Assembly: GCA_021324635.1 (NCBI GenBank)
Contig: JAJPIS010000077.1
Span: 1 to 64,000 of the forward strand
Length of the DNA: 64,000 nucleotides
Reading direction: 5' to 3'
Origin: Gemmatimonadota bacterium
Lineage (GTDB): Bacteria > Gemmatimonadota > Gemmatimonadetes > Gemmatimonadales > Gemmatimonadaceae
Both the position numbers and the translations under genes were made by a program. Shown piece after piece: positions 40,538 to 43,099 of this stretch (its first letter is position 1; the number at the start of each line of letters is the position of its first letter). The notes under the pieces were generated by a model that had not been told where the DNA came from, made no database searches, and saw only the letters and a program-made list of their open reading frames with translations.

Positions 40538-40861
40538 GGGCCGGTAGCTCAACGGGTAGAGCAACGGACTTCGTGAAACCATGGAGCACCGCATCGGAAA
40601 CGGTGCGCGTGAATGCGCTCAACATCGGCGAACGGTGTGAGATCCCAACGCCGAGCCAAGCCGTGCTCCTCGGGGCGCGGAAGGTGTAGAGACTCGACGG
40701 GCGCCACCTGACCGCCGCGGGGAGCCGGCACGATCCGCGGGCGCAGGTGAAGACAGAGTCCAGACCACGAACGTGTGGCGCGCAGGTGGCGCGGCGCGGC
40801 GGCGAAAGCCGAAGTGGGAGAGTTAATCCGTAGGTAGTGGGTTCGAGCCCCACCCGGCCTG
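40538..40861 (+). tRNA. tRNA-Lys(UUU) interrupted by a group I intron; exons 40538-40571 and 40823-40861
   Basis: Joined exons GGGCCGGTAGCTCAACGGGTAGAGCAACGGACTT|TTAATCCGTAGGTAGTGGGTTCGAGCCCCACCCGGCCTG (73 nt) fold as a cloverleaf with loop CUUUUAA; CCA not encoded; G1-U72 wobble. Confidence 0.92.
40572..40822 (+). ncRNA. Group I intron (IC3-like), 251 nt, in the tRNA-Lys anticodon loop
   Basis: R element GGTGTAGAGACTCGACGGGCGCCACC (40683-40708), S element AAGACAGAGTCC (40750-40761), P7 GACTC/GAGTC, Q-like CGCCGAGCCAAGC, P4 CGGCG/CGCCG; 5' exon ends in U, intron ends in G, P1 CUU/GAG. Confidence 0.93.
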
Positions 40862-41254: not shown

Positions 41255-41356
41255 CTGAGGGGCTGCGACAAAGGCAAACCCGGCGAAAGCCGGCGACGCA
41301 AAGCTTCGAGGCTACGGTCTGCGCGCGAGCTGCGCGGGCTACGCCAGTCGGGCCGC
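41255..41356 (+). promoter_or_regulatory. c-di-GMP-I (GEMM-I) riboswitch aptamer
   Basis: AAAGGCAAACCCGGCGAAAGCCGGCGACGCAAAGCTTCGAGGCTACGG...CTACGCCAGTCGGGCCGCC, matching the GEMM-I core (GCAAACC, GAAA loop, GACGCAAAGC); about 20 nt before the ATG at 41378; boundaries approximate. Confidence 0.9.
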
Positions 41357-41377
41357 CGAACAGACGCAGGAGGAGTC

Positions 41378-43099
41378 ATGTCGCGGTCCCATCGTGGTCC
41401 CGCGCAGGGCTGGACGCGCCACGTCCAGTGCTGCGGAATCATCCTCACGCTCCTGTCGGTAGCGTGCTCGGATCCCACCGCGCCGCCCGCCGGCGCCCGC
41501 CCGGCGCCCGGCGCCGGTGCCAACACGACGATCATCGTTGCCCCGACCGGCATCGCGTCGGCCCCGGGGACCATGCGCGCGCCGACGTCGCTCGAGCGCG
41601 CCGTCGCCACCGCCCCCGAGGGCGCCACGATCCGGCTCCAGCCCGGTGAGTACGCGACCGGCGGGCTCGTCGTCACCCGGCCGATGACGATCATCGGACC
41701 GGCGAGCGGCGGCGTCATCCTCCGTGGGAGCGCGACGATGGCCGCGACCCGGTGGGAGGCGGTCGGTACGCGCTGGCGCACACCGTTCATCGCCCCGGAG
41801 CCGCTGCCGGTCCGTGCGGCGGCACTTTCGCTGCACCCCGCGGCACTCACCGCGGCGGCGCTCGCCGACGGCGATCTCACGCCGGCCGCGGGTGGCGCGA
41901 CCCACGCCGAGGCCGTCGTGGCGCCGGTCGACGCCGGGCACCTGGTCGCCGTCGATGGTCGGTCGCTCACGCCGGCGGCGAGCCTCGAGGATGTGCACGC
42001 CGGGACGTACTTCATCGATCCGGTCGGGAAGTGGCTCTACGTCGGCGAGAACCCGGCCGTGCACACCGTCACCTCGTCGGCCATGTCGACCGGGATGTCG
42101 ATCTACTCGTCGGGAGTGCGGGTCAGCGGTCTCCGCTTCGACCACTTCTCCTACATCGGGCTCTTCGTCTCGGGCTCGAACGTCATGATCGACCACAACG
42201 ACATCTCATACAACGGCCTGATCGGGCTGGACATCAACGGCAACTCGAACGTGACCGTCAGCAACAACACCATCCAGGGCAACGCCCAGGTGGGCATCGA
42301 GGGGAGTCACACGAGTCACGTCACGATCGCCAACAACAACATCAGCAACAACAACACCGGGAACTTCGATGTGAGCGCCGCGGCGGGCGGGCTCAAGTTC
42401 ACCGACGCCTCGTACATCACGGTGTCCCAGAACTGGGTCTCTGGGAACCAGTCCAACGCGGTGTGGTTCGACGTCAACTCGTCCAACATCACGGTCGTGC
42501 GCAACACGGTACTCCACAACAAGTGCTACGGGATCTACTTCGAGCTCGCCAACTCGGAGATCATCGCCGGGAATGTGGTTCACGACAACGCCTCGGGCAT
42601 CGGCGTGCATTTCTCCGCGAACGCCAAGGTGTACAACAACACCGTCGTCAATAACGGCACCAATCTCGACATCAGCGCGTCGTACAACCGCTCGCCGTGG
42701 GACACGTACCACGCGGTGATCGTGAACAACATTCTCTGGAACGCGAACCGCGTGCTGTCGAACCTGTACCGCTACAACGGGTGCAACAGCTGGGTGTACA
42801 GCGAGGTCGATTACAACGCGTACTACTGGCCGTCCGGCAGCCCGGCGCGCTACATGGTGAACTGGTGCAACTCCTGGTACAGCTGGATCGGCAGCTTCCA
42901 CAGCGGCACCGGGAACGAGGTCCACGGGCTCCAGTACTCGGGCGGAAGCGACCCGTTCTTCGTGAACGTCTGGGGCGGCGACTACCGTCTCCACTCGGGC
43001 AGTCCGGCGATCCGCCGCGGGCAGCCGCTGCCCTCCGACGTGGCCGCGGCGCTCGGCTGGTCGGCGTGGACCCCGGTGAGCATGGGGGCGATGCAGTAG
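41378..43099 (+). CDS. Lipoprotein with right-handed parallel beta-helix repeats (pectate-lyase/NosD-like)
   Basis: Lipobox-like LLSVAC; N-rich beta-helix rungs (GLDINGNSNVTVSNNTIQGNAQVGIEGSHTSHVTIANNNISNNNTG). Confidence 0.87.
   Translation: MSRSHRGPAQGWTRHVQCCGIILTLLSVACSDPTAPPAGARPAPGAGANTTIIVAPTGIASAPGTMRAPTSLERAVATAPEGATIRLQPGEYATGGLVVTRPMTIIGPASGGVILRGSATMAATRWEAVGTRWRTPFIAPEPLPVRAAALSLHPAALTAAALADGDLTPAAGGATHAEAVVAPVDAGHLVAVDGRSLTPAASLEDVHAGTYFIDPVGKWLYVGENPAVHTVTSSAMSTGMSIYSSGVRVSGLRFDHFSYIGLFVSGSNVMIDHNDISYNGLIGLDINGNSNVTVSNNTIQGNAQVGIEGSHTSHVTIANNNISNNNTGNFDVSAAAGGLKFTDASYITVSQNWVSGNQSNAVWFDVNSSNITVVRNTVLHNKCYGIYFELANSEIIAGNVVHDNASGIGVHFSANAKVYNNTVVNNGTNLDISASYNRSPWDTYHAVIVNNILWNANRVLSNLYRYNGCNSWVYSEVDYNAYYWPSGSPARYMVNWCNSWYSWIGSFHSGTGNEVHGLQYSGGSDPFFVNVWGGDYRLHSGSPAIRRGQPLPSDVAAALGWSAWTPVSMGAMQ

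Follow-up and report, generated by a model that had tools for sequence, protein, structure and literature searches.

A tRNA-Lys(UUU) gene on the forward strand of the window (the whole 64,000-nt stretch analysed) is split between U34 and U35 by a 251-nt intron (40572-40822). The 5' exon (40538-40571, +) ends in CUU (C32 U33 U34), and the 3' exon (40823-40861, +) begins with U35 U36 A37 A38. With introns allowed, ARAGORN delimits both exons and reports a tRNA-Lys(TTT) spanning 40538-40861 that is interrupted at 34|35 by 251 nt ('gactt-Intron-ttaat'); without introns, it reports no tRNA within the 64-kb window. The Rfam group I intron model (RF00028) matches 40562-40777 with 31.8 bits (E = 2.6e-6), which is under its gathering cut-off of 50 bits, so the intron would escape routine annotation. 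The default Rfam scan of the window lists a c-di-GMP riboswitch only (c-di-GMP-I-GGC, 41264-41361, +, 59.1 bits), located directly 5' of the open reading frame at 41378-43099, whose product is a right-handed beta-helix protein. A family model made from 16 related cores, the one described here included, gives the intron 100.4 bits and has no second match elsewhere in the 64 kb. No endonuclease gene was recognised inside the intron, in which the longest open frame has 83 codons.

The intron has the elements of a group I core, including the pseudoknotted P3/P7, the P4, P6 and P8 helices and the R and S segments. In P1 (40569-40586, +), the exon CUU (40569-40571) pairs with GAG (40584-40586), as the preliminary description had proposed, and the helix is extended by CGUG (40572-40575) with CAUG (40580-40583); it appears in the minimum free energy (MFE) fold as a 7-bp hairpin, whose U34.G wobble is the U.G pair that a 5' splice site of this kind needs. 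The 5' strand of P3, GCGCUC (40615-40620, +), pairs with GGGCGC (40699-40704) and is paired in 16/16 and 46/46 alignment rows, several pairs being compensated, and the 5' strand of P4, UCGGCG (40625-40630, +), pairs with CGCCGA (40649-40654) and is 100% paired in the 16-intron alignment (A1). A Q-like segment GCCGAGCCAAGC (40650-40661, +) is conserved in A1, and the R segment GGTGTAGAGACTCGACGGGCGCCACC (40683-40708, +) contains the P7 5' strand ACUC (40692-40695) as well as the P3 3' strand (40699-40704). P8 (40705-40749, +) is formed by CACC (40705-40708) and GGUG (40746-40749) and has a long GC-rich extension, while the S segment, with the P7 3' strand GAGU (40756-40759, +), lies within AAGACAGAGUCC. 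The P9 hairpin CGGC-GAAA-GCCG (40800-40811, +) is paired in 46/46 rows with compensated changes. The 3' tail GGCGAAAGCCGAAGTGGGAGAG (+) ends at 40822 with the omega-G directly before the 3' exon, as in group I introns. The MFE fold does not display the full core, which is expected, since the group I fold is pseudoknotted.

Covariation supports these helices. A1 comprises 16 introns from tRNA-Lys, tRNA-Leu and, apparently, one phage protein gene. Across these introns, the 25 named pairs are 99.5% formed (shuffle mean 82%), with 14 compensated pairs (shuffle mean 7.5) and 62 cells changed on both sides (shuffle mean 16.4); none of 500 shuffles reached the observed values for pairing, compensated pairs or both-side changes, and sliding the partners by 1-3 columns lowers pairing to 27-44%. 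The covariation spans P3, P4, P5, P6, P7 and P8, and the P7 pair at A1 columns 104-165 takes four forms (AU, UA, GC and CG). The core also aligns over its full length with Burkholderiales tRNA-Leu and tRNA-Ile introns, and its P, Q, R and S letters, compact size and tRNA host are those of the IC3 subclass of bacterial tRNA introns. The preliminary description of this DNA had recognised a group I intron of IC3 type outside tRNA-Leu, in another tRNA but at the 34|35 site known from tRNA-Leu(UAA), and had quoted its Q-like, R and 3' tail strings; the strings are all present in their places, and the assignment agrees with the structure found here.

In the 96.8% complete host genome, 46 distinct tRNA genes were typed, including an intact tRNA-Lys(CUU) and an intact, intronless tRNA-Leu(UAA), and no second tRNA-Lys(UUU) was found among them. 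As the split gene is the sole tRNA-Lys(UUU) found, splicing should be needed to decode AAA. This codon accounts for 2/40 lysine codons in six genes of the window and is used, for example, in rplS; slow splicing may be tolerable in a tRNA for so rare a codon. One further match of 22 bp, on contig 34 of the host genome, was discarded as GC-rich chance similarity. Host contig 17 has, near 87.4 kb (L280), an odd tRNA-like gene that combines a Leu-like body with the anticodon UGG and C33.

A same-genus genome (G002) keeps the gene order trmD-rplS-rnhB-SDR-OmpA-tRNA-Lys, and in its syntenic tRNA-Lys the two exon matches abut exactly. Because the exons are exactly joined there, the intron is a clean, footprint-free insertion in a resident tRNA gene, and it was either gained in the lineage of the window or lost in G002. 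Another genome of the genus (G001) contains two lone tRNA-Lys 3' halves (L037, L038), which resemble remnants as left by mobile-element integration at tRNA-Lys.

The observed sequence, fold, site, empty site and distribution of the intron are very probably those of a self-splicing IC3-type group I intron in tRNA-Lys(UUU), with phages as plausible carriers. Judging from its family, as regards both catalysis and mobility, P1 would form between the exon CUU and GAG as the precursor folds, a guanosine from outside, bound in P7, would attack after U34, and the freed U34 would then attack after the omega-G (40822), so that the anticodon is joined and the 251-nt intron set free. Because both the exons and the surrounding genes belong to the host lineage, the intron was probably gained alone, either through reverse splicing and subsequent recombination or through conversion from a different tRNA that bears an intron. 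Since CUU at 32-34 is common to tRNA-Lys(UUU) and tRNA-Leu(UAA), the Lys and Leu genes would be interchangeable targets, and phages with intron-bearing tRNA genes could have carried the intron between hosts.

Related introns are scarce in the phylum. RF00028 matches were found in 3/288 genomes of the order, the R motif in 2/395 genomes of the phylum, and family-model matches in 4/395, one of them weak and unplaced; every good match in the phylum falls in the family of the window (Gemmatimonadaceae). In this family, two genomes (G013 and G152) have tRNA-Leu(UAA) introns at U34|A35, and a third genome, G151, which shares its genus with G152, has a further tRNA-Lys(UUU) intron at U34|U35. The survey for introns at 34|35 that the preliminary description had suggested has thus located them in both Lys and Leu, co-occurring within one family and one genus. 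The accompanying idea, that a shared CUU-type 5' exon could let one intron family invade several tRNAs, gains support from the presence of IC3 introns at 34|35 in both tRNA-Lys(UUU) and tRNA-Leu(UAA).

Other phyla also have tRNA-Lys(UUU) introns. A search that took a single genome for each species, with a pattern in which an intron end is followed by the 3' exon of tRNA-Lys, returned 65 stretches. On the basis of the 5' exon, the CUU boundary and the final G, 53 of them were confirmed as introns of tRNA-Lys(UUU) at U34|U35, and a viral contig supplied one more; the count is a lower bound limited by the search pattern. Several pattern matches were dropped as intronless tRNAs or unrelated sequence. 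ARAGORN calls many of the Lys introns 'tRNA-Asn(GTT)', an identity that was rejected because its boundary is off by one and puts the final G of the intron in the exon. The 26 IC3 Lys introns are all from Actinomycetota (Microbacterium, Nesterenkonia, Actinomyces, Phytoactinopolyspora and Mycobacterium), and the 28 without the IC3 R motif include 23 from Planctomycetota, mostly Isosphaeraceae, and three from Microbacteriaceae (examples are L155, L157 and L162 in the former phylum and L184, L185 and L206 in the latter family). Lacking the IC3 R motif and scoring up to 70 bits with RF00028, the planctomycete introns belong to a subclass other than IC3. The presence of two subclasses at a single tRNA-Lys site is strong evidence that the distribution is explained by the site and not by common descent alone.

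The two hosts share CUU at 32-34, so P1 is unchanged between them, and the bases immediately 5' of GAG differ. These are UAG, complementary to UUA, in 25/26 of the actinobacterial IC3 Lys introns and in 10/28 of the Lys introns of the non-IC3 subclass, and UU, complementary to AA, in 13 of the 14 Leu introns fetched, counts that represent non-independent events because many of the introns are near-copies. The bases follow the host, and we infer that they would form P10 with the 3' exon. The copy in the window has AUG before GAG, giving a single G.U with the Lys exon and hence a weak P10, which may mark a recent arrival or may mean that the exons are kept together sufficiently by the anticodon stem. 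It is about an even call whether group I introns have a general but overlooked target in the CUU|UUAA anticodon loop of bacterial tRNA-Lys(UUU), which unrelated subclasses would have invaded independently in several phyla, with exchange between tRNA-Lys and tRNA-Leu by reverse splicing via CUU, subsequent re-tuning of P10 to the new host, and phages and plasmids as carriers.

Among mobile elements, an unannotated tRNA-Lys(UUU) adjoins the integrase gene of Daredevil, an isolated phage of Gordonia, and holds an IC3 intron (L293 656-967; NC_048021.1, about 41.8-42.1 kb). Phage introns seen up to 2014 were all in protein genes, according to a review (PMC3984707). In dozens of viral contigs, a tRNA-Leu(UAA) gene is interrupted by an IC3 intron (e.g. 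L042, L051 and L055), other contigs have an intron-bearing tRNA-Lys (L046, L085, L090 and L102), and a 735-kb uncultured phage (L296) has a tRNA-Leu intron. In viral contigs L086, L095, L096, L111 and L113, an intron of the same IC3 type lies elsewhere than in tRNA, seemingly within a protein gene of a phage. In viral contig L100, a tRNA intron of ~675 nt has an open reading frame between Q and R, which looks HNH-like by eye but gave no Pfam match. Scans of the viral contigs gave no matches for OmpA and no Anabaena-type R motif. The Klebsiella pneumoniae IncL/M conjugative plasmid p6Inc carries a tRNA-Leu(UAA) with an IC3 intron (L294 787-1087; NZ_CP139688.1), and an aac(3)-IId gene lies ~0.7 kb from it.

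Tentatively, and with low confidence, the source of the intron may be a tRNA-Lys intron of Actinomycetota or of a phage, seated at the same position, since the top global similarities are those of the tRNA-Lys introns L186, L171 and L161, and phage Daredevil demonstrates a carrier. By identity, the nearest are the Nesterenkonia tRNA-Lys intron L186 (72%), a viral tRNA-Lys intron (71%) and a Burkholderiales tRNA-Leu intron (68%). Identity of only ~72% and weak tree support speak against this origin, as does the lack of the UAG P10 signature in the copy of the window. In the trees, which rest on about 200 columns with L194 left out, the intron groups weakly with actinobacterial Lys and betaproteobacterial Leu introns (91/83), an alternative placement joins it to the Lys intron of G151 (85/85), and AU tests reject no alternative placement.

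A jump from a tRNA-Leu(UAA) intron to tRNA-Lys inside the family of the window is a slightly less probable source. Leu introns (G013, G152) and a Lys intron (G151) do occur in one family, and the G152 Leu intron gives the best local BLAST score for the intron of the window, by a small margin; however, the full-length scores point to the actinobacterial Lys introns, and the tRNA-Leu(UAA) of the host is intronless. Identity to the intron of the window is 58-60% for the same-family tRNA-Leu introns and 61-68% for Burkholderiales tRNA-Leu(UAA) introns. The tree does not join the intron to the same-family Leu introns, although rejection is not reached either (p-AU 0.11-0.26).

Lateral descent specifically from cyanobacterial tRNA-Leu(UAA) introns is very improbable. 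The site and P1 are the same, and the preliminary description had considered the core to be cyanobacterial tRNA-Leu-like; its likeness to IC3 introns holds, but a special closeness to Cyanobacteria is not supported, as the quoted motifs are common, with small variations, to the IC3 introns collected. The comparison used a provisional Anabaena sequence in place of a genuine cyanobacterial one, and ARAGORN reads this stand-in as a tRNA-Leu(UAA) with a 249-nt intron. In the R segment, 23/26 letters equal the provisional Anabaena motif, including CTCGACGG, but the actinobacterial R of L186 matches at 23/26 as well, and the Anabaena-like look is due to one freely covarying P7 pair carrying the distinguishing C of CTCGACGG. 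An AU test does not reject a clade of the intron with the provisional Anabaena sequence; whole-intron identity to that sequence is 58%, among the less similar, versus 72% for the actinobacterial Lys intron. The host of the cyanobacterial lineage is tRNA-Leu(UAA), and here it is tRNA-Lys(UUU). Judged on these sequences, the label 'cyanobacterial tRNA-Leu-like' is too specific. Least credible is a decayed, non-functional intron in a cell relying on another Lys tRNA, for which the weak P10 and the rarity of AAA in a GC-rich genome could be cited, as the core helices are all intact, no further tRNA-Lys(UUU) was found in the host genome, and tRNA-Lys(CUU) should be unable to read AAA.

The intron adds an essential and apparently undescribed host, tRNA-Lys(UUU), to those of the bacterial tRNA introns. 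Such genes seem missing because ARAGORN without introns and the Rfam cut-off both fail to report them. The two tRNAs agree in the exon at the 5' splice site and differ in the 3' exon, which makes them a natural test set for intron host change, of which the P10-side bases following the host are part. Practical uses are also conceivable for the IC3 ribozymes, which are GC-rich and small, at about 215 nt.

The hosts described in the literature for bacterial tRNA group I introns are tRNA-Leu(UAA), fMet, Ile(CAU) and Arg, and no description of genuine group I introns in bacterial tRNA-Lys was found in the openly accessible literature, although an earlier one elsewhere is possible; the intron is of a known kind in an apparently new host tRNA. 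Cyanobacterial and plastid tRNA-Leu(UAA) group I introns are IC3 (Paquin et al. 1997, as named in PMC8450103 and PMC4033280), and the intron described here has in common with them the 34|35 site, the CUU/GAG P1, the IC3 core, a length of about 200-290 nt and a P9 GAAA hairpin. Unlike the cyanobacterial introns, it is hosted by tRNA-Lys(UUU), and the bases beside its GAG misfit a Leu exon. Introns in tRNA-Ile2 are known in Acidovorax and Burkholderia (tRNAscan-SE 2.0 paper, PMC8450103), and the proteobacterial tRNA-Ile(CAU), Arg and Leu introns likewise have their IC3 core inserted in the anticodon loop of a bacterial tRNA, although the tRNA-Ile introns have another host and anticodon context and 50-55% identity to the one described here. 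A 'group I intron' of 37-49 nt has been claimed in the tRNA-Lys(CTT) of the cyanobacterium Gloeocapsa PCC 73106 (PMC5733544), which is also an insert in a tRNA-Lys anticodon loop; however, at 37-49 nt, compared with 251 nt here, it is too short for a group I core of a known kind. The actinobacterial (IC3) and planctomycete (other subclass) Lys introns share with the intron of the window the same tRNA, the same position and the same CUU/GAG P1.
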